A model generated the notes under the pieces. It searched no databases, was not told the origin of the DNA, and was given only the letters and a program-made list of their open reading frames with translations. Positions 21,241-64,000 of a stretch of 64,000 bases of DNA are shown here, piece after piece. Position 1 is the stretch's first letter; every line of letters begins with the position of its first letter. Source of the DNA: Medicago truncatula (taxonomy: Eukaryota; Streptophyta; Magnoliopsida; Fabales; Fabaceae); assembly GCF_003473485.1 (NCBI RefSeq), contig NC_053047.1, forward strand, positions 4,293,001-4,357,000. Reading direction: 5' to 3'. Made by a program: the position numbers and the translations under genes.

Positions 21241-21251
21241 AATGCTTTATC

Positions 21252-21470: not shown

Positions 21471-21759
21471 AAGATTGAAAGGAAAACATACATACGTAAT
21501 TATTCAAGATAAATCAACAATAACAACCATAAAGAGAATTGGCTTACATAGAAGAATTCATCAGCAAGTAACAAACATACAGATAAATCAACAAGGTCAT
21601 GAACTAAGGGATTTTTACTACCTTAAGAAAGCCAAACACAATTCATAAGTCACAAATTAAAACCTTAAGCTATATAGTATTAAGCTTTTAAAAAGTACCA
21701 AGACATAAACATCAATAATAGTCAAATTCTAGGTATTTAATCTAGAAAATCTTTCAAAT

Positions 21760-24215: not shown

Positions 24216-24960
24216 AGTTACAAACCCGTGCATCCGGTCTCGGGTATGTTTATACAATGTCATAGATTTAGCCAAACAATTATGGTGTCTTAAAAATTGC
24301 TTAATAAGCTAAACTATAACAATACAAAAGCAAAGTTGGTTTGATACTTAATGGAAGCAATACATTACAAATTTAGAAAAGATCATGTTGTCATCACATC
24401 AACACAATTTTAAACATAAATTCTGAAATATGATCTTAATAAAGTACATATAAGTTTCATAAAAGCAACATGGATTCCATTGAGGGTGTTATGGAAAACT
24501 CTTTAAACTCAACATTTGTAGTATTCAATAACATGATTTGCAAGTTTAGTAACATTCAACATAGTATCATTACATGATCACTCAACTTGATATAAATTTC
24601 TCAACAACATGATTGGCATGCCAATATTTAGCTTCAATTGTTAGCTTGGAGTCAGAACTATGATATTTCTTTTCTCAAAAGTAATGATCGAACCATGTAT
24701 AAAAATTTCATTACATATATTAAAATTTATTATTCTAAATTATCGAAATATATATTAGGAAGAGGAATTCAAATTTCAACTCATTCCTTAGAAAAATAAT
24801 GAAGATCCAAACCTGCAATAGAAAAACTATAGAATCCCATCTTAGAAAAATCAATTCATTCCTCCGTTGATATCAACTCCGATTCATGCCATTTTCTTCC
24901 CTCAATAGCCCTTGAAAGGAGGGATTGAGCCATCCAATCTATTTCTCGTGGCCTTGTCTT
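24216..24960. repeat. Upstream block shared by copies D and E
   Basis: This block matches about 31800-32620 with few differences over several hundred bases (for example GATCATGTTGTCATCACATC in both). It shows that D and E duplicated together with more than 600 bp of upstream DNA. There is no gene in it. Confidence 0.7.
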
Positions 24961-26440: not shown

Positions 26441-26544
26441 GATAAACTTTTAAATTGATAGGGTTATAGGGCTAAAGGATCGTGTTGAACAAGGTAGAGT
26501 TCAATTGTATTTCGACAATCATAGTGCTATTTATTTCGCAAAAA

Positions 26545-27724
26545 CCCAAGTGTATCTTGTCAATAAGGACTAAACATATTGATGTGAAGTTTTAAAGTAT
26601 CATAAAATACTTGCATTTGAACGAATATTACTTGAAAAAATTCATACTTATAAGAGAATGTATCAGACATGTAAATCAAGTTAGTCACCACTTTTGCTTG
26701 AATTTGTTACATGTTTCTCGGTCACCACTATTGCTTGAACTTGTTACATGTTTGTCATTGCTATGGATGACTTGTGCCCTTAGCCTCTCAGGATGTGGAA
26801 CACATTCAATCATCTTCAAAGAGTATGACTCACATTTGATGATAAATTGACAGACACTCTAGCATAGCATCGCGAGTACAGTTAAAAGTACAACGTAAAT
26901 AATGGAGTCGGAACTCGGCCCCTCTATTGTCAATGGCGTAGGCACAAGTACAATTCAGGGGTAAACTTGACCATAGTATTTAAACAAAACTTTGTACTTT
27001 ATAACCTTAGTTTCATTACTTAATAGAACCGAATTTAGCATTCTAACAAAGTGCTTGCCAGAGTTTATGTTTTAAACTAGCATATCGAAATTTCTAACAT
27101 TGTGACAAATTACATGTCATTTCAAATGCTATTTCCAGAAAATTAAAGATAAGCAACTTGTAACTATACTTTCTCGAGTATGATAATTTGTATTAACCAA
27201 ATATAAAGTAAAATATAAACAACTACGAAGTATATGCAAGTTATACACAGGACCAGAGTTCCAATCCAAAATAACAAAACGATCTATTCTCAATATTCGT
27301 GTAAACTTGGCATGGAAGATAAAAGGAAATCATTAAAATGTCTTCATGGAATCTGTGGAAAACTTTCCCTGCTGTCTTTAGTAGTAGATTCTGAATCAGC
27401 TTCGACCCTAACCTAGCTTTTGCTGAGGACGTTGACCTTTGGCAACTACTGTGACTTCTATGTCGACTAAAATTGTGTCCGATTCCATAAATTCTCCTCT
27501 AAGAATACCCTTTGCAAGTTCATTTTCCGCATTTTGTTGAATCACTCGCTTCACTGGTCTAGCACCATAGTTTGGATTATACCCTAAACTTCCAAGAAGT
27601 TGAATAGCAGGTTCTGTTACTCGGATTTTCATCTTGCGGTCAGTAATTCTCTTCTGCATGTGCTCCAACTGTAATAATAAACATAAAAAGTCAGTCATGA
27701 GATGCATAATAGCATGAAAACAGT
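26545..27724 (-). pseudogene. Duplicated last exon and 3' flank of the ClpB gene
   Basis: 27408-27690 encodes on the minus strand the ClpB C-terminal domain, from LEHMQKRITDRKMKI through [20 protein letters not shown] to GQRPQQKL, colinear with exon 10 of the complete gene (41239-41568). A deletion after QQKL removes the VFRR codons and gives a premature TAG. The 3' flank, 26545-27400, matches 40500-41238, and the intron side runs to the GCATGAAAACAGTTTG shared with 41610-41627. There is no retrotransposition signature: intron sequence is kept, so this is a DNA duplication. Confidence 0.85.
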
Positions 27725-28565
27725 TTGGGAAAATTCTGAAAGTGCTGTTCTTGATGAGTTTTGAAGAAATTCAGTTCGTGTTGTCAATCAATCCCGAATT
27801 GCAGAAAATAGCAGATTGTTGAAATTCCGCTGCACAACAATGCTCTACAGCCACTATAGCCTTTATTTGACAACATTTTGTACTAAATAGCGCATTGCAG
27901 AACAAATTGTTCAAATTCTAAAACTTATTATAGCCACTACTTAACAACACTGATTTAGTCTTGTCTAGGCTACAGTGATATTGCTTGAATTCTTTACGAA
28001 ACCGGTCTACTGTATTTGAGTTTCCATTTACGCTTCATCCTGCTTGTAATCGTATGTTGTTCCATAAACCGGTCGTTCTTCCTTCACGTTAGGATCTAGG
28101 AAGCTAGACTTCCAGTTAGGATTGAATAAGTTTTAGAAACTATAGAATATGACACATCATTGACACAATGTATAGTGTAAATTTAGTATAAAAACACAAT
28201 AATGTAACTAAAAGATTAACAGAAGAAGAGTGCTTTCTTTTTTGTTTTGTTTGCATAGTTTTGTATTGGTTTCTTCTGTTTTCATGATGTTTACCGTTTG
28301 CAACTACGAATGTCCAGAGGATGCTTATTACCAGAGGCGCTCACCTCCATCCGACAGAGGTTTGTCTGTATTGTAAAACGAGGTTGTGGATCATGCTGTA
28401 GGCGCTAATATGATACCACAAAACCCTTGTTGCAGGTTGACTTCGTGTGATGAATGCGTCAATTGTCATGTGTGCCTCAATGGTCACATGGTTTGGATCT
28501 GCTCCCATTAACCATTGTCTGATTCAGAAGAGGCGTACGAGGGCTAAGATGATGATTCTAAGGTA
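27725..28565 (+). pseudogene. Degenerate EID1-like F-box copy (unit E)
   Basis: This copy of the F-box upstream region joins directly to the ClpB fragment at about 27725. Like the unit-D copy it jumps from GATGTTTACCGT to TTGCAACTAC (about 28300) and lacks the F-box half. The 3' part, 28310-28550, keeps recognisable codons for NCHVCLNGHMVW but has stops and an extra base after the ARLW-like segment. Confidence 0.8.
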
Positions 28566-29348
28566 TTTTCTTGTACATGAAAAATCCCAACGTCCCGCCT
28601 TTTATTTTTATTCTTTTCCAGTTTAACAATTTCTATGAAATATCAAAATTAAGGCTGGAAATGTGCTATGAAACACCAACACAGATACAAACATAAGACA
28701 CCGGAAGAACACGACAATGACATGTAGACACCGATAATAATTAAAGAAAATGAAAGTAATTGAATTTAACTACATGTGTCTATGTCTGAACCAGACGCGT
28801 CACTGATTTGAAGTGTCAGTGCTATATAGAAAATGTGTTTTCTGGTAATTATGAGAATTGGAACAACTTTCAACAGCTTAATCCTTCTTTGTAGATGTTT
28901 TAGTTGATTAAACCGACAAACTATGCTTGGAGAAAAATCATGTTTTATGTTTCAATGACTGAGAAGTGTTCATGATGTAATGTAGCATATGTGCTTAAAA
29001 ATGGACACTTAATATCTTGAGGAGCATTTCACAGGTGCTGGTGAAGACAATACTCCTATAAACTAGGAAAACATACATAAGTAATTATTCCAGATAAATC
29101 AAGAATGTCATGAATTTGCAAGATCCTACAGAGTTTATAATAACCATATATATATGCATATATCAATTCATATATAATCATAATCATATAGTAATAGAAC
29201 ATAAATAAGAAAGCATACCATTAAACTCAAGTGAAAACCCATAAGAAAGCCAAACACAATTCACAAGTCACAAATTAAAACCTTAAGCAAGTATTAAGGA
29301 TTTAACAAGTACCAAGATAAACATCGATAATAGTCAAATTCTAGGTAT
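28566..29348. other. Intergenic sequence of unit E
   Basis: This matches the 3' flank of the F-box copies and then the 3' flank of hAT copy D (ACCTTAAGC and TAGTCAAATTCTAGGTATTTAATC in both). There is no relic of host exons 2-3 here, unlike units D and F. Confidence 0.4.
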
Positions 29349-31617
29349 TTAATCAGAAACTTCCATTTGATCTTCATCTTCGTCTCCATCTTCATCTTCG
29401 TCTCCAACTCCATATTCATCATACAAATCAGCAATCACATCACGTTGAGACTTTAGATATCGAGTAGCTTCAATTTTTCCATTTCGCCAAACAACCCTTC
29501 TAGCTTTCTCTACAGCCAATTTTGAATTAGCCATGACAAAGACAGCATCATTATAAGCCTTTTGCCACAAAAGGTTTCTTCTCTTAGCATGAACCTGAAC
29601 AAATATAGATACAATTAAGATAATCAGGTACTACTACTAAGTATTTTACAATTCACATTCAATATTTTTTTCATCTTACCATCTCGAAGGCACTCCGATT
29701 ACGCTCACCCCCATAAGAACTGCATGTCAAGCTTAATACACGACACGCAAATTTTTGGAGCTCCGGTAGTCCCTCTCCAAAGGCTCTCCACCAAACTGAT
29801 GGAATCTCAATACGAGCTGTCCTTATGGCTTCAGGGTGACCCATATAGTTCGCCCGTTTATCGAAATCATCGAGTTGAATTTCAATTTTAGCTCTTTCTT
29901 CGGGATCAGCCACCATCCTTTTTATACAATCGTGTAGACCATATTTAACTACAGCATCATCTCTAAATCTATGGCTATAGTGAAACTGAGGGTTAAGAAA
30001 ATAGCCTGCTGCATGCAAGGGGCCGTGGAGTCGTTTGTCCCATCTTTCATCAATGATCTCCCATAGAGGCATAAAGCTAAAACTAAAACCAAAAAATAAA
30101 AAAAGTTGAATTACTTTTAACAGTTCAAACCAAGATATCGAAACAAAAAATCAATTATAAAAACTAATGTTGATAATGGATCCTGATGAAAATATTCACC
30201 TATCTGTGCCACCTTTGAAAAGACCCCTTCGTATTTCGTCTTTAGCTTTCTCCATTGCTTCATAAATGAAACCGGTGGCTGGTTCATCGATTGAATTGAC
30301 CAAACGAAGCACATCAAGCAGAGGATTTGCGCCGTTCAAACAATTCGTAACATTTTTCCAGAACTCCTTGTCCAAAACCACATCCTCAGCAATTTTCCCA
30401 CCACTTGTTTTCGCAAACTGGGTAGACTTCCATGCCTCGGATGTGAACATTGTTCTCAAAGCTCCCTTGGTCTCATGAAGACAGTATAAAGTTAAGTAAG
30501 ACGTGGCACAACATGTAATGCCTTGTCTCACCAAATCTATTCCTTGCGTAAACTTATGCAATAGAGAAATGAGAGAAGCCCTCGAATAAATAAAGGTTGT
30601 AATTTTTTTACCCTTTGTAATTATCTCTTCATGAACAGGTATCTTCTTCTCATAATCTTCCAACATCCTCTCAATGCAGTGTGTCGCACAAGGTGTCCAA
30701 TACAACCTAGTCCTCTTCTCCATCAACATCTCACCAGCAGCTTTGAAATAAGCCGTATTATCCGTGACAACTTGAACAACATTTTCTTCCCCAACCTCTT
30801 CAACAACATCATCCATCATCTTAAACAATTTCTCAGACGATTCCAACATATCTGACGCATCAACCGACTTTAAAAAGAACGTCCCATTCACACTATTCAC
30901 CAACAAGTTCAATATACTCCTCTTCTTCTTGTCAGTCCATCCATCAACCATTACACAACACCCCGTTTTCTTCCATTGAACTCTATGATCTTCCAAAGCT
31001 TTATTCACCAACTTAACTTCTTCCCTCAAATACTTCCCTCTAATCTCATCAAAAGATGGCGGCACAAACCCTACACCACATCTCGAAACCATAGCACACA
31101 TTTGAACAAACTCCATACTCTTCACCGCCTTCATCGGTATTGCATTGTTGTAGAAAAACCTCGCAATCGCTCGACACGCTTCCTCCTCAATATTATTATT
31201 ATCACCACTAGCTATTGACCCACCTCTTTTTTTCTTGAAAATATCTTCAAAATCAAAACTTTCACCACCAACATTATTTGCTTTTCTTTTTTTGCCAACT
31301 CCGACACACTTCCTCCCCTCCCCCTCATCCTCGTCCTCGCCCTCATCCTCATACACCTCATCATCAACATCTTTACCACAAGCTTCACCACCATGTTCAG
31401 ATCCAAGCAAGTGACTCGCAAATCTGTATAGCCCACCCATTATTATTTGATCACAATACTTGCATTGGATTGCATTTTCACCATCAATTGAAATTCCATG
31501 TTCCCAAATTATTTCAGCATCATCTTTTGGAACTTCAATCTTAGAATCAACAGTGGCATTTTCAGAGATGGAGCCACTAGTAGAAGCAGAAGCAACAGAG
31601 GTTGATTTTGAACTCAT
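29349..31617 (-). CDS. hAT-like BED/DUF659/dimerisation protein, copy E (intact frame)
   Basis: Exons 30200-31617, 29680-30076 and 29349-29594 (minus strand) total 2061 nt, 686 residues, with no stop and the same phases as copy D. The start is MSSKSTSVASAS. Order: BED-like finger (CKYCDQIIMGG, H, C); a longer acidic run (DEDEGEG) before GKKRKANN; DUF659 core with MVDGWTDKKKR and VVTDNTAYF; LYWTPCATHCIERML; dimerisation motif LTCSSYGGERNRSAFE, the copy closest to the usual hAT form; acidic tail. It is D's closest paralogue, and the similarity extends well upstream. The open frame and conserved splice sites argue for a maintained gene. I cannot tell transposase activity from DNA-binding use. 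Confidence 0.8.
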
Positions 31618-31799: not shown

Positions 31800-32620
31800 T
31801 AGTTACAAACACGTGTATCTGCACGGGTCTCGGGCATGTTTATACAATGTAATTGATTGAGCCAAATAATAATGGTGTCTTAAAAATTGCTTAATAAGCA
31901 AAACTATAACAATATAAAAAGCAAAGTTGGTTTGATACTTAAAGGAAGCAATACATTACAAATTTAGAAAAGATCATGTTGTCATCACATCAACACAATT
32001 TTAAACATAAATTCTGAAATATGATCTTAATAAAGTACATATAAGTTTCATAGAAGCAACATGGATTCCATTGAGGGTGTTATGGAAAACTCTTTAAACT
32101 CAACATTTGTAGTATTCAATAACATGATTTGCAAGTTTAGTAACATTCAACATAGTATCATTACATGATCACTCAACTTGATATAAATTTCTCAACAACA
32201 TGATTGGCATGCCAATTTTTAGATTCAATTGTTAGCTTCAGCTTGACCTTGGAGTCAAAACTATGATATTTCTTTTCATCACCTATCAAAAGTAATAATC
32301 AAACCATGTATAAAAAGTTCATTACATATATCAAAATTTAGTGTTCTAAATTATCGAAATATATATTAGAAAGAGGAATTCAAATGTCAATTTATTCCTT
32401 AGAAAAATAATGAAGATCCAAACCTACCATAGAAAAACTTTAGAATTCCCACCTTAGAAAAATCAATTAATTCCTCTGTCAACCCCGCTTCATGCCATTT
32501 TCTTCACTCGGTAGCCCTTGATGTCAACATTCCTCAAAACAAAATTCTTTAAGAAGATAACACTCTCCTTATAATTGTTTAAGAGTCATCCTATCTATTT
32601 TTCGTGGCCTTATCTTTTTT
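31800..32620. repeat. Upstream block shared by copies E and D
   Basis: Paralogous to 24216-24960. This copy has a short extra segment (AACATTCCTCAAAACAAAATT region, about 32525-32580) absent from the D block. Confidence 0.7.
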
Positions 32621-33420
32621 GAACCCTTGCCGAGAATTCAGGAAAAAACTGGTTCGGATTATATAATTTGAATTGTATCAACACAAAGATTGGATTGGAT
32701 TTGATTCAATTGTGTTTTTGCTTTACACTTGGTTGCTAGATTAATCTAAATTTCATTGATGTGAGATTTGGAGTTACCAAATTCACAAAAACCCTTTATT
32801 GGATCATCACTAAACTATAAACAAGAGACGGAAACAAATTTACTTAAACAGAGAGAAACCTATGGGATAAGAGAAGCATAAGAGGTTTACATCTTTTCAT
32901 TTATTTATGATAGCCAAGGTATGAAACAAACATATTTGAAAGGAAACAACAACAAATTCTCCAACGAAGTGTTAATCACCGCTCAAGGCATACATCAAAC
33001 CTATAATAATAATATAATTGTAACAAATAAATAAATAAAATAACAACTATTTTCATACCATATTTTCTACCTCATTTTTTACCCATTAAATGAAAAAAAA
33101 AATTATACAAATGTGGATGCAGGGGAAGAAATCAAGGTGGCGACATGATTTTTTTGCCAAATTGTAGTTTATGCCAAAATCATGGTAATCCTGCCACAAT
33201 TCCGTCAAACTAACCACCAATCCAAACATGCACGTTAGATAGAAGAATTTATACTACTAGATTCTATTACAACAGTATTTATACTACTAGCATGAAACTG
33301 TAAATAACAGCAAGTCCAATAGAGTTATATCAAGTGTTGTCCTGATAGGAATTCAGTTTCATCTTAGTAACACCATTCTCATTGTTTACCATGAAAACTG
33401 TACAGATTAAGAATAAAATG
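32621..33420. other. Intergenic region entering unit F
   Basis: No supported gene to about 33100. From 33110 the sequence matches 20945-21240 downstream of copy D (GCAGGGGAAGAAATCAAGGT in both). Confidence 0.4.
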
Positions 33421-33431
33421 CTCTACCCATG

Positions 33432-33650
33432 AGCATGCTCAATATTGTGGAACCGAGCAGGCATCGTGGCCTTTGCACGGCACAACAGTGACCCGTTCTG
33501 TTTGTTTTGTCAAAAAAAAAATATGCATCAAGTGTACGATGGACACAGCAAAAGAGAAACAACAAAAATGTCACAGTTACGACATTGATATCTGTGTTTG
33601 TGAGTGTGATAAGGCGATAGTTCCACCAATTCTTTCACCATGAAAAAAGA
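33432..33650 (-). pseudogene. Relic of exons 2 and 3 of the 59-kb conserved gene (unit F)
   Basis: 33432-33512 is a decayed exon 3 (TGCAAAGGCCACGATG and CTCGGTTCCAC preserved on the minus strand, with an inserted base between them). 33585-33650 is a shortened exon 2 preceded by TTTTTCATGGTGAAAGAATTGG. Same order and orientation as the relics beside copy D. Confidence 0.8.
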
Positions 33651-33654
33651 TTGA

Positions 33655-34438
33655 CAGGAAAACATACAGAAGTCATTATTCAACATAAATCAACAATAAC
33701 AAACATACAGAGAATTGGTGATAATAGACTATCAAAATAATTGTTCAGAGAATTGGCTTCCATAGCATAATTCATAATTCATAAGCAAGTAACAAACATA
33801 CGGATAAATCAACAAGGTCATGTACTGAGAGATATTGACTACCTAAAATTGATTGAAAGACACAGAACAAGATCCTCTAGCTGAAAGACTAAATAAAAAG
33901 TATATTGGTTAAAGAATTGAATTAAAAGTTTAATCTATGAAGCATGGACGCCGGACAAGACACGAACACCAACAGCCAATTTTTTTAGAAAATCACATAA
34001 TCCAGGGTAATTATATGTGTCAGTGTCGTGGCGGTGTCTGACACGAGGACACGCCTTATCCGAGAAGTGTCTGTGCTTCATAGAGTTTAATACACAATGA
34101 GCAGGAGTACATAAAATTGAACCAAATATATACAAGGATAGCAAGATCCTACTTTAATTCTTTAAACACAGATTAAGATGGTAGTCAAAGTAAAGATTTT
34201 AGCAAGGATAGCAAGATCCTACAAAGTTCATAATAACCATATAGTAAAAGAACATAGATAAGAAAATCACTACAGGCATCTCATTAAACTTAACTCAAAA
34301 CCCATAAGAAAGCCAAACACAATTCATAAGTCACAAATTCATACCTTAAGCTATAGTATTAAGCTTTTAACAAGTACCAAGATATAAACATCGATAACAG
34401 TCAAATTCTAGGTATTTAATCTAGAAAATCTTTCAAAT
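33655..34438. other. Spacer downstream of copy F
   Basis: No gene is supported. It shares AT-rich 3' flank sequence with copies D and E. 33925-34090 includes a stretch resembling the F-box 3' flank (GACACG/GTGTC words). Confidence 0.35.
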
Positions 34439-36610
34439 TTAATCAGAATCTTCCATTTGATCTTCATCTTCCATTTCATCATCTTCATCTTCGTCTCCAT
34501 CTTCAACTTCATCTCCAACTCCATATTCATCATACAAATAAGCAATCACATCATGTAGGGATTTCAGATTTGGAGTACCTTCAATGCTTCCATTATCCTT
34601 CAGATTTTGAACTAGCTCAACAAACCATCTGGCTTTCTCTTCAGCCAATTTTGAATTAGCCATGACATAGACAACATCATTATAAGTTTTTTGCCACAAA
34701 AGGTTTCTGTTCTTAGCATGGACCTAAACAAATTCAAATACAATTAATATAAGCAAGTAAGTGCTAGGTATTTTACAATTGACATTCAATATTTTTTTCA
34801 TCTTACCATCTCAAATGCACTCTGATTACGCTCACCCCCATAAGAACTGCATGTCAAGCTTAATACACGACACGCAAATTTTTGGAGCTCTGGTAGTCCC
34901 TTTCCGAAGGCGCTCTGATGGAACCTCATTACCAGCCGTCATTACGGCTACAGGATGACCCATATCGTTCGCCCGTTTATCGAAAGCATCAAGTTGAATT
35001 TCAATCTTCGCTCTTTCTTCAGGATCGGCCACCATCCTTGTTATACAATCATGTAGACCACCTTTAACTTCAATATCATCTCCAAATACATCGCTATAGT
35101 GAAACTGAGGGTTAAGAAAATAGCCTGCTGCATGCAAAGGGCCGTGGAGTCGTTCGTCCCATCTTTCGTCAATGATCTCCCATAGAGGCATAAAACTAAA
35201 AACAAAAAATAAAAGAAAAAAATTCAATTACTTCAAACAGTTCAAACCAAGATATCGAAACAAAAAAATCAATTATAAAAACTAATGTTGATAATCGATC
35301 CTGCTGAAAATATATACCTTTCTATGCCCCCTTTAGAAAGACCCCTTCGTATTTCATCTTTAGCTTTCTCCATTGCTTCATAAATGAAACCGGTGGCTGG
35401 TTCATCAATTGAATTGACCAAACAAAGCACATCAATCAGAGGATTTGCACCTTTCAAACAAATCATAACATTTTTCCAAAACTCCTTGTCCAAAACCACA
35501 TCCTCAACAAATTTCCCACCGCTTGTTTTCGCAAACGGGCTAGACTTCCACGCCTTCGATGTGAATATTCTTCTCAAAGCTCCCTTGGTCTCTTGAAGAC
35601 GGTCTAAAGTTAAGTAAGTTGTGGCACAAGAAGTAATGCCTTGTCTCACCAAATCTGTTCCTTCCGTAAACTTATGCAATAGAGAAATGAGAGAATCCCT
35701 CGAATAAATAAAACTTGTAATTTTTTTACCCTTTGTAATTATCTCTTCATAAACAGGTATTTTCTTCTCGTAATCTTCCAACATCATCTCAATGCAGTGT
35801 GTCACAAGGTGTCCAATACAACCTAGTCCTCTTCTCCATCAACATCTCACCAGCAGCTCTGAAATATGCCGTATTATCCGTCACAACTTGAACAACATTT
35901 TCTTCACCAACCTCTTCAACAACATCATCCATCATCTTAAACAATTTCTCAGACGATTCCAACATATCGGACGCATCAACCGACTTCAAAAAGAACATCC
36001 CATTCACACTATTCACTAACAAGTTCAATATACTCCTCTTCTTCTTATCAGTCCATCCATCAACCATTACACAACACCCTGTTTTCTTCCATTCAACTCT
36101 ATGATGATCTTCCAAAGCTTCATTCACCAACTTAACTTCTTCCCTCAAATACTTCCCTTTAATCTCATCAAAAGACGGCGGCACAAACCCTACACCACAT
36201 CTCGAAACCATATCACACATTCTAACAAACTCCTTACTCTTCACCGCCTTCATCGGTATTGCATTGTTGTAGAAAAACCTCGCAATCGCTCGACACGCTT
36301 CCTCCTGAATATTATCACCACTAGCTAATGACCCATCTCTCATTCTCTTGAAAATATCTTCAAAATCAAAACTTTCTTCATCAACATCATTTCCTTTTCT
36401 TTTTTTGCCGACCCCAACACACTCACACCCCTCCTCCTCCTCTTCATCCATCTCACCAACATCTTCATCACTATCAATTGAAATTCCATGTTCCCAAATT
36501 TTTTCAGCATATTCGTTTGAAACTTCAATCTTATAATCAACATTATCATTTTCAGAGATTGAACCACTAGGTGTAGAAGCAGAAGCAACAGAGGTTGATT
36601 TTGAACTCAT
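34439..36610 (-). pseudogene. hAT-like gene, copy F (pseudogene)
   Basis: Exon positions match D and E: 35318-36610, 34807-35195 and 34439-34723. Three lesions are visible. The BED finger is gone: after WEHGISID the sequence jumps to SDEDVGEMDEEEE, deleting the Cys and His ligands. Two bases are missing near 35803 (GTGTGTCACAAGG against GTGTGTCGCACAAGG in D), a frameshift just before CATHCIEM. Eight bases are missing near 34915, removing the Trp pair and shifting frame in the dimerisation domain. The VDGWTD and VTDNT motifs remain. Promoter features (telo-box, two E2F-like sites) are still clear, so transcription may persist. Confidence 0.85.
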
Positions 36611-36830
36611 TTTTAGGGTTAGGGTTTGAAACAAAGAGAGAAGATGAATCGAGAAACTGAATGAAATGAAGGTGAAAGAGCGATTAGGGTTACGGTTTGT
36701 ATTTAACTGTAAAAGAAACGGGTTTTGAAATCGGGTCAAAAAACCCGTTTGTGTAAGATCGTAAACTCGGAGCGATTTTACGATTCAACGAGTTTCAGAG
36801 TAGAAGATGAATGAAGCTGGAATGTCGCGC

Positions 36831-36853
36831 GCGGGAAATTGTAGCGCGGGAAA
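36831..36853 (-). promoter_or_regulatory. Paired E2F-like sites upstream of copy F
   Basis: GCGGGAAA occurs at 36831-36838 and again at 36846-36853, spaced 15 bp apart, in a locally GC-rich patch. The reverse complement TTTCCCGC fits the plant E2F consensus. The 38.5-kb fragment keeps one such site (38826-38833) at a similar distance from its start. Confidence 0.5.
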
Positions 36854-36859
36854 TATATA

Positions 36860-38490
36860 AGGTATTTATTTTTTTGCTTTTATATATTTATTTAATCCTG
36901 CAAATAGGTGTTGTTTGAATTTTGGTCCCTGAATGTACTAATTATTTTAAATTATCACCGTAAAATTTAATCATTTGAAATTTAGTTCTTCAGATCATAA
37001 TCTCGTTGAGTTGGCAATGATTAGTTAACGTGTCTAGTGTTAATTGGGATAAGTGGTTGTTGACTCATATTTTTTACTTGAGTGGACAAAAATACCCTTA
37101 ATAAATTCGGAACATGATGAAAGCACTATTTTTCCCTTGTCTTCTACACCTTTCTTTTTCTGTTATAGCAAAAAAAAAAAAAAAAGGAAAAATAACAACT
37201 AGACCGATTTGACTCAAACTGGCCGAGTCACTGATTTTTTACCGATTCATGCCGGCTCTGATCGATTCTCATTGGGCCAATCACATGGCCGATCTGATTT
37301 CCTGCTCGACCCGGTCTACCCATCGGTTCCAGTCCGATCGGTTGGGTCGAGCTGAGTTTTAAAACTATGCTTGCAAGTGGGCGGTGGACTTGATCCCCTT
37401 GTATTAATCGATTATTGAATCGAATACCGAGTTTTCAAAAAAAAAACTTTATTATTTTAATTTATTTTTTATATATTATTTTAAATTCGACCTCGGGGTG
37501 CATTAGGGTGCAATCCCTCGTCCTTTTAACATGGATTGTCTTTTAGTTAGTTAGTTAGTTAGTTACGCCTCGGTAGTGATCCCCATGCGACTCATTGACT
37601 TTACTCCACCTATACACCTGATCATATCTATCGACTATTAGAACCCAAGTAATGAATCCAAAGAATTGTTGGATACTTGGATCATTAGGCTTGACCTTGT
37701 CATTGGCAGGTCATGTGTTTTGTTATATGAGTATGAGAATGAAATTTCAGATAGAGGTCTATCTAGTCGCAAGATGGTGTCCGAAAGAGCAAGTATTGAA
37801 CCACCCTTGAATTTGTGGATTCTTAACGCATTGTGGATGAAACTCACCCATTGAAAGCATTTGTTCTAGAGTTCCAATGTGAAGAGAGAGGAGGTGTATA
37901 AACCTGTCAATGACTTTATGGCGGGAGATAAAGGAAAAAGGCGATCGAGTTGAAGAAGAAGGCAAAGGAGGACACATGACCTGGTGGTTCTTCATTCATG
38001 AACTTGGACAAACTGATTAAGGAGGTCTTGCTTAAACATAATTAACAAGTTCAGATATAGAACTATAGGTATGAGGATTCAAAGTAAAATGTTGTAGAAT
38101 TTGAGGGACATGACTGAAAGTGTCAGTAGATTATGGAGATGGTTATAAGATTTTTAGCAATACTTTATGAATCAGGTTGAGGTTATGTAAAAATTACGTT
38201 TTAAATAAAGGTCTGCGACAGCAATATGAGTCACGGCATCATAGTTTTTGGGATCTATGCGACCACAGTTGAGACTGCGTTTCACCATGAATATAGTCTC
38301 TTATCATGGTTTCAAAGATAAAAAGAACCTTGTACAATTTTTTCCTTACCTTTTTTCTAACTAAATAGTGATTAAAGAATTAAAATCTTTCTTCAAATCG
38401 ATAATAACAGTAACAATCTTTGGCGAAACATTTCAAAGCATATACCAATGTATTTCACTAGTTTTAAAGAGTTTGTTCTCAATCGATGTA
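36860..38490. other. Intergenic region with transposon-like remnants
   Basis: 37195-37370 is a GC-richer block of unknown repeat type ending in a short A run near 37440. 37547-37565 is a (TTAG)n tract of about five units. Open frames near 37640-38000 show no domain that I recognise. This block separates copy F from a 5' fragment of another copy. Confidence 0.35.
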
Positions 38491-38554
38491 TTTCACAAAT
38501 TTGAATATATCAATGTCATTATTTTAGTCACAAAAGAAAATGGTTGGATTTCAT

Positions 38555-38720
38555 CACAAATCTTGCATTTGATTGCATTTTCACCATCGATTGAAATTCC
38601 ATACTCCCACAAATATTCAGCATTTTCATTGGAAATTTCAACGCAAGAATCAACACTAGCATTTTCAGAGATTGAACGGTTAGAGGTAGCACTAGCAGAA
38701 GAAAATGGTTTTGAACCCAT
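38555..38720 (-). pseudogene. 5' fragment of a hAT-like gene
   Basis: The minus strand reads MGSKPFSSASATSNRSISEN, then VEISNENAEYLWEYGISIDG and IKCKICDEI, colinear with the first 60 codons of D-F including the first Cys pair of the BED finger. Similarity stops at about 38555 and nothing else of the gene follows. The leader retains TTTAGGG and an E2F-like site at 38826-38833. Confidence 0.85.
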
Positions 38721-38839
38721 TTTTAGGGTTTGAAACAGAAAGAGAAGAAGAATCAAGAAACCGAATGAAATGAAGCTGAACGAGCGATTGTAGAAGAAGA
38801 TGAAGGAATGAAGTGGGAAACTTGCGCGGGAAAAAGTAG

Positions 38840-40153: not shown

Positions 40154-41238
40154 ATTCCTTTTTCCATATATAATGTATATAGTGTGTCCGATATTCTTGT
40201 AATTTTCATTGTGTTTTCTTCTCAAATATACTAAATATATAGTTTAAATAAAAAATTAGCAACATTTTTAGGGAAACAATGATCATGTTGATAGAAAAGT
40301 GTTATATACTATCGGCGTGGAATGGTTAGATTACTACAACATGTGGAACCAATGTTTTAATCTCAACTGAGAAAAATAGTTCCAATGGAGGAAACCATAC
40401 AATGTTAAGATTTAAGTCTTTTTATGTTTCGTCCACTTAAGGTAGATATAATTAACTAGATTTAATATGATTTCTAAACACTAACATAATAAAAAAAAAT
40501 CAAGTGTGAATTGTTAGGACAAAACATATTGATGTGAAGTTTGCTTGCATTTGAACAAATATTACTTGAAAAAGTGGGTACTTATAGGAATATATCAGGC
40601 ATGTTAATCAAGTTGGTCACAACTATTGCTTCAACTTGTTACATGTATCTCAATGCTAAGCATGACTTGTATCTCTAATCTTTTATGATCTAGAAGACAT
40701 TCCATTATATTCAAAGGGAATTGATATTCTCTGATAAATTGAGAGACACTCGAGCATGGCATTTCAGAGCGAGTAGAGTTGAAAGCGCAACGTAAAAATG
40801 GAGCAAAACAAGTCCCCTCTATTGTCAATGGTGTTGGCACAATTGGCCGACGCTTCCGCAGTATAGTACAGTCCAGGGGTAAACTAGTAAACTTGACCAT
40901 GGTATTTAAACAAAACTTTGTACTCTGTAAACTTAATTTCAATTTCATAATAGTGCTTGCCAGCAGAGTTTGTGTTCTAAACTAACATATCAAAACTTGT
41001 GACAAAATAAATGTCATTTCAAATGCTATTTCCAGGGAAAAAAAGATAATGTAGCTTGTAACAGTACTTTCTTAAGTATGATAATTTGTATTGACTAATA
41101 AAAAGTAAAATATAAATAACTATAAATTATATGCAAGCTATACACAGAACCAGAGTTCAAATCTATAATAACAAAACGATCTATTCTCAAAATTCGTGTA
41201 AAACTTGGCATGGAAGATTAAAGGAAAGCATTAAAATG
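40154..41238. other. 3' flank of the ClpB gene
   Basis: 40500-41238 is duplicated at 26545-27400. No gene is supported in it. The downstream end of the ClpB transcript should lie here, but I cannot place a poly(A) site. Confidence 0.4.
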
Positions 41239-44200
41239 TCATAGAATCTGAGGAAAACTTTCCCTGCTGTCTTTAGCAGTAGATTCTGAATCAGCTTCAA
41301 CCCTCCTAAAAACTAGCTTTTGCTGAGGACGTTGACCATTGGCAAGTACCGTGACTTCTGTGTCGATTAAAATTGTGTCCTCTTCCTTAAATTCTCCTCT
41401 AAGAATACCTTTTGCAAGTTCATTTTCCACATTTTGTTGAATCACTCGCTTCACCGGTCTAGCACCATAGCTTGGATCGTACCCTAAACTTCCAAGAAGT
41501 TGGATAGCAGGTTCTGTTACTCGGATTTTCATCTTGCGGTCAGCAACTCTCTTTTGCACACGCTCCAACTGTAGTAATGAACATAAATAGTGAGTCTTGG
41601 GATTTAAAATCGCATGAAAACAGTTTGCAGCAAATCTTGAAATCACAAAGATCAAAACAGTCCCCAAAATATAGTTTTTCCATTTTAGTCCTAGTATTAT
41701 ACTATTTTTTTTTTCTTCGATTTAGTTACTATAATATACTTTTTTTCAGTTCCGTTTGAGTCCCTATCATGCAAAGACTAATTGAACATAAATCAAATAT
41801 TAAAAGGACTAAAAGCAAAGAAAATAAGTATACTATAGGAACCCAACACAACGAGGACTAAAATGAAATATATATTGGAATGTATCAATTAGTGAGGTAA
41901 AAATTACCTGTAATCTGACAATGCTACTTATTTGGTCACGGTCAAGAGGCCGGAAAACAATATATTCATCGACTCTATTCATGAACTCAGGGCGAAAAAT
42001 GGATCTTGCAGCATCCATTACACGCTGTTTCATGGTTTCATATGCCGAATCTTTTGGTACAGAGTCATCATCCATGTTGAGAATGTACTGTGATCCCACA
42101 TTTGAGGTCATGATGATGACAGTGTTAGTAAAACTTACTGTGCGGCCTTGTGAATCGGTTACTCTGCCATCATCCAAAATTTGAAGGAATACATTGAAAA
42201 CATCCGAGTGTGCCTTCTCAATCTCATCGAACAAAATAACTGCATAAGGTCTTCGACGAACTGTTTCCGTTAGTTGCCCTCCCTCTTCGTATCCAACGTA
42301 TCCAGGAGGAGCACCAATCAATCTTGAAACCGTATGCTTTTCCATGTACTCACTCATATCAATCCGAACAAGTGCTTCTTCTGTATTGAACATGTAGGAA
42401 GCGAGGGCCTTGGCTAGCTCGGTCTTACCTACACCTGTGGGGCCCATGAACATGAAGCTAGCAATTGGACGATGAGGATCTGATAGACCTGCTCTTGAAC
42501 GTTGGATCGCCTCGGCAACTGCCTTGACAGCAGGATCTTGACCTACAACACGCTTATGTAGTTCGTCTTCTAAATATAATAGTTTCTCTCTCTCTGATTG
42601 TTGAAGTTTAGAAATCGGGATACCAGTCCACTTGCTCACAATTTCACCAATATCATTCCCAGTTACTTCCTCTCTCAACATAGACTTACCAGAGCTCATA
42701 TATTCATGTAACTCCTTCTCTGCACCCTCGAGTTGTCGTTGCAAAGAATTTAAACTGCCGTACTTTAATTCAGCAGCACGATTTAGATCATACTCTCGCT
42801 CGGCTTGTTGGATCTCAAGGTTTACTCTGTCTATCTGTAAATATAGATACAGAAATGATCAGAATAGGATTTTTCATGTTTTAATAATGAAAAATCATGG
42901 TTGCTGTAGAATTGAGGAATAATTTCTTGAATATCATTTCAAAAATAACGAGAGTACAATCACTAAACTATTAAAATAGGATATATTATACCTAATGGGC
43001 CTGATTACTAGGATGAATACAATTTGTACTATTAAATATATGATCGTATTTACAACACTCCCCCTCGAACTAGAAATGATGATCCATTCCTAGCTTGCAC
43101 TAAGTTGGCTGAATGAAGGCACAGTAAAACCAGGAGCTCTGATAGAATGTAGAATTGGAGAAATTTTCTAAATATAATTTCAAAAGTAATGAAAGTACAG
43201 TCGCTAAACTGTTTAAGGATAGACTACAGTATACATAATGGGCCTGATTAAAGGATTGAATACAATGTGCTAATAATTGCAAAATATGCAATCATATTTA
43301 CAACAGTAATATATATTAGTGAGTTGCTAATGCCAATGTGAAATTACTAAATCAACATGTAGAAGGGCACTAGCTCAATGTGACGAAACGTGCAAAAAGC
43401 TGCAACATAACTATCCTTTAAAAGTTCAGCTATTTGGATAAAAAATAAGAGAACTTTTGGCAAAAGTAATAGAAATAGGATGACACACCTCTTCTTTGAT
43501 TGACTGAAGACGAGTCATTACAGACTTTTCATGTTCCCATTGCTCGGTAAGCTCGCCCTGTTTCTCTTTTAGGAGAGAGAGCTCTGTCTCAAGACGGTTT
43601 AACCTATCTTTAGAAGCCTTGTCTGTATCATTCATGAGAGATAGTCTTTCCATCTCTAGTTTCAAAACTGACCTATTAATCTCATCAAGTGCAGTGGGCT
43701 TAGAAGTGATTTCCATTTTCAGTTTAGCGGCTGCTTCGTCAACCAGATCAATAGCTGCATTTATAAACATCATTTTCAGGCTTAGAAGTTAGCCAGCCCT
43801 TTATGAGCAATATGGATACTTAAATCAGTCAGAAAATGTGCTAACCCGAAACCCAGACCTCATTCTCATTAAACATGTTATGTATCCTAATAATATCATC
43901 GTAATTATTTACTAGAAAAACATAAATGCTAATGAAATTTCCCAATCTTTGTTCAATAAATTCACCCTCCAAAAGTTTTTATTTTCAACGAGTAATTACT
44001 ACCTTTGTCTGGTAAAAACCTCCCACTTATGTATCGATCTGAGAGAATTGCAGCATCCACAAGTGCAGTGTCAGAAATACGAACTCCGTGATGCAACTCG
44101 TATCTTTCCCGCAGCCCCCTTAGTATTGAAATGGTATTTTCCACTGAAGGTTGATCTACGTAAACTTGCTGAAAACGGCGTTCTAGAGCAGGATCCTTCT

Positions 44201-53741: not shown

Positions 53742-54027
53742 GGGTTAATAGTGTTTTTCACCCCTGTAATATATGTCATTTCCGATTTTCGCCCCTATAA
53801 AATTTTCGGTTTGATTTGCACCCTCGTAAAATTTTTATTTTCCGGAAAACACCCTTAATAGGCCATTCAAAAACCAAAATTTCTTGAAAAAAAATTCTGA
53901 AAATGGCCTATTAGTGGTGTTTTCTGGAAAATAAAAATTTTACGAGGGTGCAAATCAAACCGAAAATTTTATAGGGGCCAAAACTGAAAATGACATATAT
54001 TGCAGGGGTGAAAAACACTATTAACCC
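53742..54027. mobile_element. Foldback MITE with 9-bp target duplication
   Basis: The two halves are near-perfect inverted copies, with GGGTTAATAGTG at the left end and CACTATTAACCC at the right, joined by a short loop near 53870-53905. TTGTTTTAT flanks it at 53733-53741 and 54028-54036. Total 286 bp. There is no coding capacity. A single-stranded copy would fold into a hairpin over about 125 bp per arm. Confidence 0.88.
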
Positions 54028-59024: not shown

Positions 59025-62000
59025 ATGGAAGGAGTAGCATCAATAGCATTACTTCCAAACGGTTCAATTTCAGGACACTTCATTCATCTTCCTCATTCCA
59101 CCTGTTATGGACTTCATGGCACTGGTAACTCACTAATTCAACCCTGTTTTTCATGTTTCGACATTGTTTAAGGTTGTGTTTTTTCTTTTCAGACAGTTAA
59201 GGTTGTGTTTTTTATGAATGGTTTAAAGATTTTGTTGAAAATCAAAAATGGGTTTTTGAATGTAAGATCGTAGAATCGTAAAATTGGTAGAATCAATGAG
59301 ATTTTACGTTAAAAAAAGGTTTTTTTTTACCCTGTTGCAAATAAAATGATCCTTTTTAGGTTTATATAGAAACCGTAAACCTAATTTGTGTTTTAGCTTC
59401 ATTTCATTGAGTTTCTCTCTCTTGGTCTCTTTCTGCCTAAACATGAGTTCAAAGCCAACCTCTACTAACCCTAAAAGCTGTTTTTTTAGGGTTTGAATTG
59501 ATACCCTAAACCTAATTTCTGGTTTAGCTTCATTCTGTTCTCTCTCTCTGCCCTAAAAATGAGTTCAAATGCAAACTCTGTTGATTCTGCTGCTGCTGCT
59601 AGCCCTAGTGGTTTATTTTCTGGAAAAGATGATGTAGATTCTAAGATAATGGGGCCAAAGAATGTTACTGATTTGGTTATGGAGCATGGTGTTTTAGTTG
59701 ATGGAGAAGATATGATAAGTTGTAGATATTGTGATGACTGCTTGTCTCGTGGGGTTTACGCATTTTTACGTCACTTGGCTGGAACTGGAACTGAAAATGA
59801 TGTTGAAGTTTGTGAGGGTGTTGGTGGTGAGGTGAGAGAGGAAATGTTGGGGATTATTAGTGATTTGCAAGAGAGTAATGAGGAAGGGTGTGTAAGAGTT
59901 GGTGAAAAAAGAAAAGGGAATGAAGTGGATGTTGGGAGTTCTAGAGATGATTTGAAAAGGAGGAGAGCTGGATCGCAAGCTATCGTCGTCAATAACATGG
60001 TTAAGAAGACTTTGAGAGGTGAAGCTTCTCGAGCGGTTGCAAGGTTTTTCTACAACAATGACATACCGCTTGATGCGGTAAAGAGTGATGAGTTTATTAC
60101 TATGTGTCAGTTGGTTTCAAGACATGGGTTAGGATTTGTGCCACCTTCTTTTGATGACCTTAAAAGGGAAATATTTGGCGGAAGAAGTTAAGTTGACAAA
60201 GGAAGCTTTGGTAGAACATAGAGCTATATGGAAAGGGTACACTATAATGGTTGATGGATGGACCGACCCAAAGAAGAGGAACATACTAAATATCTTAGTG
60301 AATAACCAGGAGAACATTCTTTTTGAAGTCCGTTGATGCGTCGAATATGTTGGAATCACCTAACAAACTCTTTAAGATGATGGATGAAATTGTAGAAGAG
60401 GTTGGGAAGAAAATGTTGTCCAAATTGTGACAGACAATACAACCTACTACAAAGTTGCTGGTGAGATGTAGATGGTGAAAAGGACTAGGTTGTATTGGAC
60501 ACCTTGTGCAACACACACAATTGAGATGATATTGGAAGACTATGAGAAGATACCCATTCATGAAGAGACAATTACAAAGGCTAAAAGAATTTTAGCCTTT
60601 ATTCATTCAAGGGCTTCTCTCATTCCTCGGTTGCAGCACTTCACTAACGGAATAGATTTGGTGAAACAGGGCATTACTTGTTGTGCCACATCTTACCTAA
60701 CTTTAGGTTGTATTCATGAGAACGAAGGAGCTTTGAGAAGAATGTTCACATCCAAGGAGTGGAAGTCCAGCCAGTTGGCGAAGACGAGTAATGGGAAATA
60801 CGTCGAGGATGTGGTTTTGGACACAGGGTTTTGGGAAAACGTCATGATTTGTTTTAAAAGTGCACATCCCCTGGTTGAAGTGCTTTGTTTGGTCAGTTCA
60901 ATAGATGAGCCAGCCACCGGTTCCATTTATGAGGCATTGGAGCAAGCTAAAGAGGAGATACGAAGGAGTCTTTCCAAAGGTGTCATAGAAAGGTAAATAT
61001 GTCTTGCAGGATCGATTGTCGACTTTAGCTTTACTATTGAGCTTTTGTTTTGTTTTCTTGGTTTGACCGTGAAAAGTAATTCACTTTTTTCAGTTTTATG
61101 CCTCCATGGGAGATCATTAATGAAACATTAGACAAACAAATCCACAGCCCCTTGCATACTGCAGGCTATTTTCTTAATCCCAAATATCACTATAGTCCTG
61201 GATTTAGAGGTGATATTAAAGTTAAACGTGGTCTAGAAAATTGTATAACAAGGATGGTGGCCGATCCCGAAGAAAGAGCTAAGATTGAGATTCGACTTGA
61301 TGATTTCGATAAACGGGCAGGTTTTCTGGGTGATCCCGTAGCCGTAAGGGCGGTTGATAAATGGATTCCTTCACATTGGTGGGACTCTTTTGGATATAAA
61401 CAATCAGAGCTAAAAAAATTGGCCATTCGTATATTGAGCTTGACATGTAGTTCTTATGGGGGTGAGCATAATCAGAGTGCCTACGAGATGGTAAGATGAT
61501 AAAAAACATTGAATATGAATTGTAAAATACCTACTACTTGCTTATATTAATTGTATTTGTATTGGTATAGGTCCACGCTAAGAGAAGAAACCGTTTGAGG
61601 CAAAAGACCCGTAATAATGTTGTTTTTGTCATGGTTAATTCAAAATTAGCTGAGGAAAAGCAATCTTAAGGGTCAGTTGAGCTTAAATCTTAATGATAAT
61701 GGAGACATTGAACGTTTAGGTGTGGACAACTTGGATTTGGGTTCGGATACTCCATATCTGAAGTCTCTATATGATGTGATTGCTGATTTGCGTGATGAAT
61801 ATGCTACTGGAGATTGAGATGAAGATGAAGATTGGACGGAAGATTAGATTTTAATTTTATGGAATTTCTAGATTAAAAATCGAGAATTTGATTACATGTT
61901 ATTGGTGTCTATGTCTTAGCACTTGTTAAAAGCTACTATAGCCGACGTTAATTTGAGACTTCTGAATCGCATATGACTTTCTTATGGGTTTCAAATTTAA

Positions 62001-63784
62001 GTTTAATGAAGTGTTTGTAGTGATTTTCTTATGTTTGTTATTTTATATGAATTGATATGCACGTATCTATCAGTATCATAAATTTTGTAGGATCTTGCAA
62101 TCCTTGCTAAAATCCCACTCTTTACGTTCTTGACTTCTCTTCCCAATCCCTAGTAAAATCCTCATTTTGATTCCCTTCTTAATTTGCGTGTAAAGTATTG
62201 TAGTGTGTTCAGTTAAGCGCTGATTTATGTAAACTGTTATAGGAAGCTTATTGTAATAGGCTGAAAACAGTTTATAGATGCCGCAAGCTATTTTGGAAGT
62301 GAACTCAAATATTAATATAAGTGTTCATGTCATGATATAAGTCTAAATAGCTCTTCCAATTTCCTTTAAGTAGAGAATATATCGGTGCATATTTTTATTT
62401 TGACATTTTTTTAGTGAAGACAGAACATGCATTTTTGACTTTTACTATTTTATTTGGTGGGTCAAGTGAGTAGACTAGTGAACATTAGAATGTAATGATT
62501 GATACAACAGTTATGTATAGAGCACATGATTGAGTTGTTAGTATCACTCAACTGGGCTTAAAGAGAAGAAGCACATATCTGCACCATGTTGGGAAATATG
62601 CTTGGTTTGAAAAATGTCTCTATTTTTACTTTTTAATTTAATCTTATTACCATTGCCTTAAAAGCCAGTTCAAGTATTGATTTCTTGTATACCCTTGGTC
62701 AAATGGTTGAATTTTATGTACTCCTTTGTGTTGCTGCTTTGAATGAGAAATTTAAAAAGCGCAGCAAATTGCCCTTCGGTTTCCGTGGTAAAGTATGCTC
62801 AAGGTATAGTTTTTAGTTAGTCTTTCAACTAGAGTTTGTAGCTGTGACTATCATCTCTCAAGGTAGTCAGTACTCTTTAGTATGCCTACCTTGTTGATTA
62901 ATTTGTATGTTTGTTTCTTTCTCATGATTCTACTAAGTGAGGCCATTCTCTGTACAATTATTTTGATAATCTATCATCTCCATTGAATAATTACTTATGT
63001 ATGGTTTCCTCTGTCTTTTTCATGGTAAAAGAATTGGAATGCGAAAGGGAATGCAGTAAGGGTGAGGACTATCGGCTCATCAAACTCACAATCACAGATT
63101 TCAATGTAATAACAGTGACATTTGTGTTTTTTTCTTTTCATGTCTATGTTATAATTAATATCTGTTTTTGATAAAACAGACGAAGAAAGAACAAGCCACT
63201 GTTGTGGAGTGCAAAGGTCACGATGCTGCTCGGTTCCACTGCATCGATCATGCTCATGGGTAAGCATAGTGATCTAAATATGATATACCTTCATGTAGAA
63301 TTTATTTTCCTCAACATTGATCATCTTGTGGTTTCTACTCAAGACAAACTAAAGGAATCAAAATAAAAATCTGGCAAAAATGTAGAGACTAATTGTTTAT
63401 TTCAACATATATTTTACATTTTGCACAAAGTAATTATCAGTAATTTTTTGCATCAGATTGAACTTCTCTATTTATGTCCAATTCATTTGTCCTCTGTACC
63501 TAGTTTTACAAACCGATTTCTCTTTGATTACATTATCTCTCCTCACAAATTGTGTGTTTTTCATTCATTTTGATGACCAATACTATAGATGATTTGTTAA
63601 TTTTTTTTTTTTTTGCATTCACCTTTTAACAGTTGGGATAAGGAGATCACAGGTATGGTTGAACAAAAGGATGGGAAGAAAAGAATCACAGTTTCATTTG
63701 AGTGTGAGACACTGAAAGCTGAGGATGCAGCTGAAGACCACATCAGGAAGTTCATGCCAAAACTAGCTGGGATGGATGCTGTTG
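59025..63784 (+). CDS. Conserved small plant protein, 5' part (runs off the window)
   Basis: Exons 59025-59124, 63032-63105, 63180-63259 and 63633-63784 join in phase: MEGVASIALLPNGSISGHF to GLHGTELECERECSKGEDYR, then KLTITDFN, TKKEQATVVECKGHDAARFH, and GWDKEITGMVEQKDGKKRI to MPKLAGMDAV. Exon 4 ends at a GTATGT donor, so the remainder lies beyond 64000; 135 codons are seen. The acceptor of exon 2 is an unusual AAG. I recall similar short plant proteins but cannot name a family or a function. No signal peptide or membrane segment; E/K-rich and probably soluble. Intron 1 is 3.9 kb because it holds hAT copy G. The exons are intact here, and only here: every other copy in the window is a relic. 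Confidence 0.75.
59345..59575 (+). repeat. Direct repeat of the copy G leader and start
   Basis: About 110 bp at 59345-59455 and 59470-59575 share CGTAAACCTAATT-like/CCTAAACCTAATT, TTTAGCTTCATT, TCTCTCTC and an ATGAGTTCAAA start (59443 and 59559). The first ATG opens a short frame with the same first codons (MSSK) that soon meets a stop. A local tandem duplication of the gene start. Confidence 0.7.
59559..61854 (+). pseudogene. hAT-like gene, copy G, nested in intron 1 of the 59-kb gene (pseudogene)
   Basis: Exon positions 59559-60992, 61094-61490 and 61571-61850 match the other copies. Lesions: one extra A near 60163, an indel near 60310, a lost G near 60405, TAG at 60468-60470 where others read ATG/TTG, and two or more stops in exon 3. 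Exon 2 is fully open (HSPLHTAGYFLNPKYHYSPG, LTCSSYGGEHNQSAYE), and VDGWTDPKKR and VTDNT motifs remain. The leader MSSNANS resembles D-F, while the stretch after the finger (SNEEGCVRVGEKRKG) resembles A and C. It is therefore a plausible close relative of the ancestor of both groups. It has the same strand as its host gene. Confidence 0.85.
61860..63031 (+). other. Remainder of host intron 1
   Basis: No gene is supported. 62030-62165 matches the 3' flank of copies A-C (GAATTGATATGCA near 62048, TTTTGTAGGATCTTGC near 62083, both seen inverted near 4560-4600 and 9940-9990). This shows that intron sequence beyond the hAT gene was duplicated with it. Confidence 0.5.
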
Positions 63785-64000
63785 GTATGTCAATATTAAT
63801 GATTTGTTTCAGTCTACCGATCTTTGATCTTCTTCATGTTACTGCTTTATAACTCTATTGGTCTTGCTGTTAGTTATAGTTTCATGTCAGTTTGGTTCAG
63901 TTTTGACAACCTTGGTTTTAACGGAATTTAGTAGTATAATTACTTTCTTCTAGCATTGTATTAATTTCATAATCAGAATATACAGAAGTTCAGTCCCTCA

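Follow-up and report, generated by a model that had tools for sequence, protein, structure and literature searches.

A hAT-derived gene family in Medicago truncatula that probably spread by block duplication of a locus nested in a host intron

Local gene clusters grow by segmental duplication and gene conversion, and the domestication of transposases is as a rule inferred only long afterwards, by which time the founding insertion site has disappeared. Here we analyze a stretch of 64,000 nt of Medicago truncatula DNA (C6:4293001-4357000; the window) that holds seven copies (A to G) of a hAT/DUF659 element, one of them (G) within intron 1 of a plant gene, hereafter the host gene, and the other six beside pieces of that same gene. 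As in other local gene clusters, there are tandem units, mosaic copies, and broken beside full-length copies; unlike those clusters, the units carry fossils of the founder's host gene, so that the order of events can be read. The domesticated plant hAT genes SLEEPER/DAYSLEEPER are, like the present copies, protein genes of hAT origin in which a search for terminal repeats found none; by description they form an angiosperm-specific family (PMC3499209), whereas the clade studied here was found as eight copies in a single genome, most of them within the array. The duplications attributed to alternative transposition of maize Ac/Ds likewise involve neighboring hAT copies with duplicated segments around them; there, however, 8-bp target duplications mark the junctions (PMC3744419), whereas none was found at the seven copies here. 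Hermes transposase gives a weak collinear match over the positions of its D, D and E residues, but among the four full-frame copies in the window only copy E has all three. Gene families that derive from a transposase and expand by local duplication are known; the present one has an unusually readable history, and among the titles and abstract openings surveyed we found no description of this locus.

We consider it likely that the window contains a local hAT-derived gene family which arose by block duplication of the nested locus, was then shaped by local duplication and gene conversion, and is leaving the transposon lifestyle. The nested locus consists of the following features.

59025-59124, plus strand: host gene exon 1 (open reading frame with a GT donor, joined in frame to exon 2)
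59287-62175, plus strand: hAT copy G, in host intron 1; the end points are homology limits
59559-60992, 61094-61490 and from 61571, plus strand: coding exons of G (gene model), the frame broken by frameshifts and stops
63032-63105, plus strand: host gene exon 2 (GT/AG junctions)
63180-63259, plus strand: host gene exon 3 (GT/AG junctions)
63633-63784, plus strand: host gene exon 4 (GT/AG junctions)
64178-64245, plus strand: host gene exon 5, in the adjoining sequence outside the window

The five exons give an intact open reading frame of 157 amino acids (aa), completed by exon 5, which confirms the initial annotation of an intact exon series with G in intron 1 on the same strand. Exons 1-4 matched no Pfam family above the cut-off. 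Genome searches, here and below, covered 430 Mb in 42 contigs and score only the best candidates, making the match counts strong but not exhaustive. The host gene appears to be single copy, because a search with its protein returned seven matches, namely its own five exons and the relics beside B and C. The remaining hAT copies all lie on the opposite strand.

4797-7035, minus strand: hAT copy A, 679-aa frame (7035-5672, 5559-5172, 5084-4797)
10205-12419, minus strand: hAT copy B, 671-aa frame (12419-11065, 10945-10549, 10468-10205)
14308-17182, minus strand: hAT copy C, broken; it has an early stop and, within exon 1, ~340-350 bp of inserted sequence
21760-24029, minus strand: hAT copy D, 687-aa frame (24029-22627, 22502-22106, 22023-21760), exon 1 E-like and exon 2 F-like
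29349-31617, minus strand: hAT copy E, 686-aa frame (31617-30200, 30076-29680, 29594-29349)
34195-36610, minus strand: hAT copy F, frameshifted
38548-38789, minus strand: lone fragment of a hAT 5' end

Spliced models thus bear out the open frames first noted in A, B, D and E, each of which has a full-length three-exon frame, while C, F and G are broken. Profile searches matched the DUF659/RNase H-like core in all four full-frame copies (best E-value 1.3e-54) and the hAT C-terminal dimerization domain in three of the four at an E-value of 0.1 or below, best in copy E (3.7e-6; 27.1 bits against a cut-off of 21.4). An N-terminal BED zinc finger scored 13.5 bits in G, under the cut-off of 20.6, and the family matches of the four full-frame copies did not include it.

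Beside each of the six copies A to F lies sequence of the host gene, arranged as follows.

4276-4478, minus strand: relic block beside A, exon 4 with flanks, corresponding to host 63609-63815; also 4089-4186, corresponding to host 64056-64153
9637-9841, minus strand: relic block beside B, exon 4 with flanks; also 9419-9495, corresponding to host 64059-64135, and 8857-8939, corresponding to host 64300-64397
14062-14277, minus strand: relic block beside C, exon 4 with flanks; further host pieces at 13861-13935 and, weakly, 13363-13393
21223-21628, minus strand: relic block beside D, end of intron 1 and exons 2-3, corresponding to host 62856-63287; also 20896-20929, corresponding to host 64018-64051
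29065-29090, minus strand: relic beside E, intron 1 only, 26 bp corresponding to host 62985-63010 (96%, E-value 3e-6), absent from the initial annotation
33418-33904, minus strand: relic block beside F, end of intron 1 and exons 2-3, corresponding to host 62805-63267; also 33291-33329, corresponding to host 63848-63886

Relics of exon 4 beside A, B and C and of exons 2 and 3 beside D and F had been recognized from the letters alone. Using blastn, we recovered exon 4 beside A at 4307-4452 (83.7%, E-value 6e-42), beside B at 9666-9811 (88.4%, 1.5e-49) and beside C at 14093-14246 (83.1%, 7e-41), the earlier coordinates being good to ~50 bases and mostly much closer, and the end of exon 2 together with exon 3 beside D (21448-21411 and 21331-21251) and beside F (33621-33584 and 33499-33427). 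Order and orientation are those of the host gene, as first proposed, apart from one match in F (33983-34094, corresponding to host 65981-66096 at 72%) that is out of host order and is probably a dispersed repeat. Beyond position 64000 the homology to the host continues in A, B, C and D, and two copies match the host even behind its stop codon, B over 98 bp and C over 31 bp; past 64000, C matches host 64053-64153 in two pieces and, weakly, 31 bp at 64300 (E-value 2.7e-4). F has a weak 58-bp match to host 64604-64661. Past the window edge, where the initial annotation had suggested looking for the remaining host exons, exon 5 was located and the homology of A to D continues, but exon 5 itself had no match in any copy in the comparison extended past 64000.

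A genome search with 63600-63780 (exon 4) returned four matches, the host gene and the relics beside A, B and C, and a search with 62850-63280 (exons 2-3) also returned four, the host gene, D, F and one fragment on C1. Because these searches match little beyond the host and the array copies, the relics do not appear to be chance similarities. The C1 fragment (~C1:51277015, within C1:51272001-51282000) carries host exon 3 with introns, isolated on another chromosome, and includes an 88-bp stretch common to D and F and unmatched in G; no hAT coding match was found near it by blastn of the surrounding 10 kb.

The junctions between the elements and the relics indicate how the blocks may have been formed. 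In A, B and C the element end is followed by the end of host intron 3, and the nested locus contains a matching pair of direct repeats.

62162-62171, plus strand: left partner of the direct repeat TCATTTTGAT, 10 bp; deletion between the partners would account for A, B and C
63565-63574, plus strand: right partner of TCATTTTGAT, 10 bp, 1403 bp further on

The junctions of A and C carry one copy of TCATTTTGAT, and that of B is the same except for two base changes, within the repeat or adjacent to it; the loss of exons 2-3 from A to C is therefore best explained by a deletion between the two 10-bp repeats of the nested arrangement. A separate insertion of A, B and C in intron 3 was considered and dropped, as the junctions fit the repeat deletion. 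D, E and F retain intron-1 sequence between the hAT copy and exon 2, and F and G are alike over ~30 bp just past the element, as judged by eye. Together with the deletion in A to C, these features mean that a single insertion in intron 1 would explain all copies. Block duplication of the nested locus, the simplest reading in the initial annotation, is well supported by these comparisons: host pieces accompany all six copies, intron-1 sequence persists in D to F, the pieces in B and C run past the stop codon, and the junctions of A to C fit the nested arrangement.

On the 5' side, a relic of host exon 1 was sought in the flanks and not accepted: the match in A was equaled by 0 of 200 shuffles, but its position is 5' of the start codon, in sequence rich in T. 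The corresponding numbers of shuffles as good were 1/200 for H (a copy outside the array, described below), 9-10/200 for B, C and F, and 98-124/200 for D and E. The DNA upstream of A, B and C is unlike that of D to G. A possible 5' mini-exon ATGG is present in A, B and C (7310-7313, 12725-12728 and 17448-17451) and would be joined in frame with the hAT exon on splicing. An origin of the A/B/C 5' exon from another gene was ruled out, the C4 match (87%) being a fragment of an A/B/C-like hAT 5' end. By eye, TTTCCCGC and GCGGGAAA motifs, which we take to be E2F-like, occur upstream of F (~36820-36890) and of B and C (~12840-12880).

Trees of hAT and relic sequences, which should match after block duplication, do so only in part. 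The exon-4 relic tree groups B with C (97%), in agreement with the hAT tree, but the order of D, E and F differs between hAT exon 1, which groups D with E (96%), and exon 2, which groups D with F (94%); the whole-body tree again joins D and E. D and E are 1-9% apart along most of the 5' flank; their distance is 5% for exon 1, 10% for exon 2 and, 3' of these, 17.5%, and the 5' flanks of D and E share a 300-bp stretch that is 99% identical (24326-24625 / 31917-32216), with the adjoining genes differing by 5-17%. The exon-4 relics of A and B differ at 12 of 193 sites (p 2e-5 against the 16% in the hAT 3' part), those of A and C at 19 of 203 (p 0.001) and those of B and C at 17 of 205 (p 0.17). 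The switch in the grouping of D between the two exons is simply explained by unequal exchange or gene conversion, which would have reworked the array.

It had also been proposed that the host exons decayed while the hAT frames stayed open. The frames are indeed open, but faster decay of the host pieces did not emerge: the exon-4 relics are 83-88% like the host, and the hAT bodies of A to C only ~74% like G, although constraint on the host exon presumably lowers the host side of the relic distance. In D and F the relic blocks, counted with their introns, match the host at 72% and 68%, slightly under the 76% of the hAT bodies of these copies. There would thus be no clear contrast in decay between host relics and hAT bodies, and the missing host exons look deleted, not eroded.

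To assess movement of the elements, we scanned around each copy for 11-bp inverted ends (two mismatches allowed) with an 8-bp duplication (one allowed), a scan that decayed ends would escape. None of the seven copies showed terminal inverted repeats with a target duplication, the signature that the initial annotation had set against its own reading. Inverted local alignment of the ends of A to H was within the range of shuffles (17 to 100 of 100 as good). In a relative, K (C8:15779001-15789000), only 1 of 100 shuffles was as good, and its two ends carry GGTAGACAAACTCG in inverted orientation as perfect 14-bp repeats (positions 2532-2545 / 5799-5812); K is set in DNA with several GGCGCATG-like words. 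By eye, the 3' ends of G and F resemble that of K, and the founder was probably an element with terminal inverted repeats. We see no sign in these comparisons that the array copies moved one by one. The clade appears to be of low copy number, because the element 3' end region matched eight places (A to H) and two short ones (73 and 45 bp); a genome search with the hAT protein gave at least 80 matches from 90 scored candidates. The eighth clade member, H (C6:5.66 Mb; 4826-7206 within C6:5659001-5669000), consists of three exons with open frames, has an insertion at the N terminus and is truncated at the 3' end; its homology ends before the element 3' end. A fragment on C4 (5023-5396 within C4:7523001-7533000) comprises an A/B/C-like 5' exon and intron, 83% like B, with no hAT body. 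A tree separates A to H from three outgroups (100/100) and places H with A to C (98.7/100), with further relatives left unplaced.

To evaluate the open frames, neutral evolution was simulated along the exon-1 branch lengths in 200 runs. On the A branch 10.45 stops are expected and on the B branch with its stem 9.96, and none was observed inside either. Stop-free runs numbered 0/200 for A, 0/200 for B with its stem, 5/200 for the own branch of B and 14/200 for F, and neutral openness of the A and B frames is accordingly rejected. G has 4 stops at the codon sites of E against 10.19 expected and therefore probably lost its frame late. Among A, B, D and E, all 15 coding gap events are multiples of three, compared with 5 of 25 non-coding events (Fisher 3.9e-7); relative to E over exons 1-2, such gaps account for 11/12 in A, 10/11 in B, 4/4 in D, 10/12 in C, 6/8 in F and 7/10 in G. 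A single omega was estimated at 0.647 (2ΔlnL 37.3 against omega 1), with 0.51 for D/E/F and 0.58 for G. These values suggest that the A and B frames have clearly been kept by selection, the case for D and E alone being weaker, and that the proteins may be kept whole with many residues free to change. Comparing M2a with M1a gave 2ΔlnL of 21.8 for A, B, C and G (14.75 masked), 17.8 for A, B and C masked, 14.8 for A, B, C and E masked, 12.2 for all seven and 0.3 for D, E, F and G. In four data sets the site models assign an omega of ~5-6 to 5-12% of codons, the top site being the former catalytic glutamate. Positive selection in A/B/C is suggestive only, as multi-base changes and gene conversion can imitate the signal.

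The Hermes residues that we take to be catalytic (D, D and E) fall at 225, 286 and 597 of copy E in an alignment with Hermes (PDB 4d1q, 6dww) that is collinear (profile 124-604 in 6dww) and weak (E-value 0.17-0.19). All three are present in only one of the four full-frame copies, E; the broken copies F and G have them too, as does H when judged by eye. In A the second Asp is changed to Glu, B has the same change and has lost the catalytic Glu, D has Asp for that Glu, and the broken C is without it. The motif reads CERNW in K and GEHN, GERN or further changes in A to G. On this alignment, A, B and D would be in frame yet each short of a catalytic residue.

Neighboring genes in the window are duplicated as well. 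Three F-box-like gene copies or pieces (near 1-2322, 19284-20701 and 27724-29068), with a profile score under the cut-off, adjoin A, D and E, and the host remnant of E at 29065-29090 abuts the copy that reaches 29068. Beside that copy, 26540-27741 repeats 40494-41642 at 77% overall; this is a duplicated 3' end of a gene that we presume to be ClpB-like, in which an AAA_2 domain was found. An inverted repeat at 53742-54027 has 126-nt arms, 94% complementary, that are 34 nt apart.

The history that we favor would begin with a low-copy hAT/DUF659 element in intron 1 of the single-copy plant gene. A block reaching from near the element 5' end to beyond the last host exon would have been copied as DNA, inverted, some 22-54 kb away; the content of the block is observed, and its copying mechanism is our reconstruction. 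The target region is one in which F-box-like and ClpB-like pieces were duplicated too. One lineage, to judge by its junctions, would have lost the DNA between the TCATTTTGAT repeats, and with it exons 2-3, bringing exon 4 beside the hAT copy (A, B and C); a second would have retained exons 2-3 (D and F, with a trace in E). The present array, with its mosaic copy D, may then have been produced by tandem duplication and gene conversion. The host gene would have stayed intact while the nested G lost its frame, probably late. The frames of A, B, D and E would have survived the gradual loss of transposase function, for A and B clearly because of selection.

Several points weigh against this history or soften its support. 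The 5' homology stops at nearly one point near the element end in D (24222), F (36797) and G (59287), with differing 3' extents, and the best inverted match of G (17 of 100 shuffles as good) lies at 59290-59307 / 62153-62173, which are its homology limits, making decayed ends in G possible. H and the C4 fragment lie away from the array with no recognizable host sequence beyond short repeat-like matches, so some movement occurred. The grouping of G with D to F has support of only 71-73%, the likeness of F and G spans ~30 bp as judged by eye, and the Hermes match is weak. D and E taken alone were stop-free in 17/200 and 7/200 neutral runs, a weak test; the copies in the gap test were chosen as intact, so that their gaps must sum to a kept frame, and that test omits the first 20 codons and exon 3. 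Omega at the A/B/C tips averages 0.96, and divergence is about equal in coding exons and introns. Some of these points would follow if the transposase itself had copied the blocks by alternative transposition between neighboring hAT ends (reversed ends or a macrotransposon, as in maize Ac/Ds). Such reactions can copy whatever DNA two elements enclose, in this case the host exons. Several hAT copies are near neighbors, and tandem duplications are reported to arise from reactions of Ac ends (PMC3744419); the shared 5' limits of D, F and G and the position of G's inverted match would also be accommodated. We nevertheless regard this as unlikely, as no copy combines inverted ends with an 8-bp duplication in a scan that decayed ends would escape, and the F-box-like and ClpB-like pieces duplicated in the same region point to a general duplication process.

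That A to F are ordinary insertions of a still mobile family, their frames open through selection for transposition or through youth, would fit the complete triads of E and, by eye, H, the two members outside the array, and the 14-bp perfect ends of K. The pieces of one host gene beside all six copies contradict it; in addition, terminal repeats and target duplications were not found in the scan, the 3' end region matched only eight places of any length, A, B and D have full frames without the full triad, and the divergence of A and B is too great for their frames to be open by chance, leaving this explanation very improbable. Capture of host exons by the elements in the manner of Pack-hATs, with the nested G arising later, draws on the position of host pieces beside hAT copies and on the small extent of the F/G junction likeness, which rests on ~30 bp seen by eye. 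However, the pieces lie outside the element 3' end, include introns and keep the host order bar the one repeat-like match in F, those of B and C extend past the host stop codon, and D, E and F still show intron-1 sequence from between the hAT copy and exon 2; we give this origin hardly any weight.

With block duplication of the nested locus as the favored history, the likeliest role of the products, as far as sequence comparison can suggest, would be that of a host-used, DNA-binding, dimerizing protein family derived from transposase. A more specific reading, tentative and in our view rather doubtful, is that of a young, plant-lineage-restricted family from one intronic hAT insertion, in which A/B/C are catalytically dead, A and B are kept in frame and positive selection acts. 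If true, this would be a host-used DNA-binding family that continues to change rapidly and may be in conflict with related transposons. The host-exon fossils mark the founding site and indicate spread as DNA blocks, and the non-coding sequence beside each copy serves as a yardstick. The succession from insertion through block duplication to loss of catalysis with the frame kept may thus be read in one locus and can be tested in related legumes.

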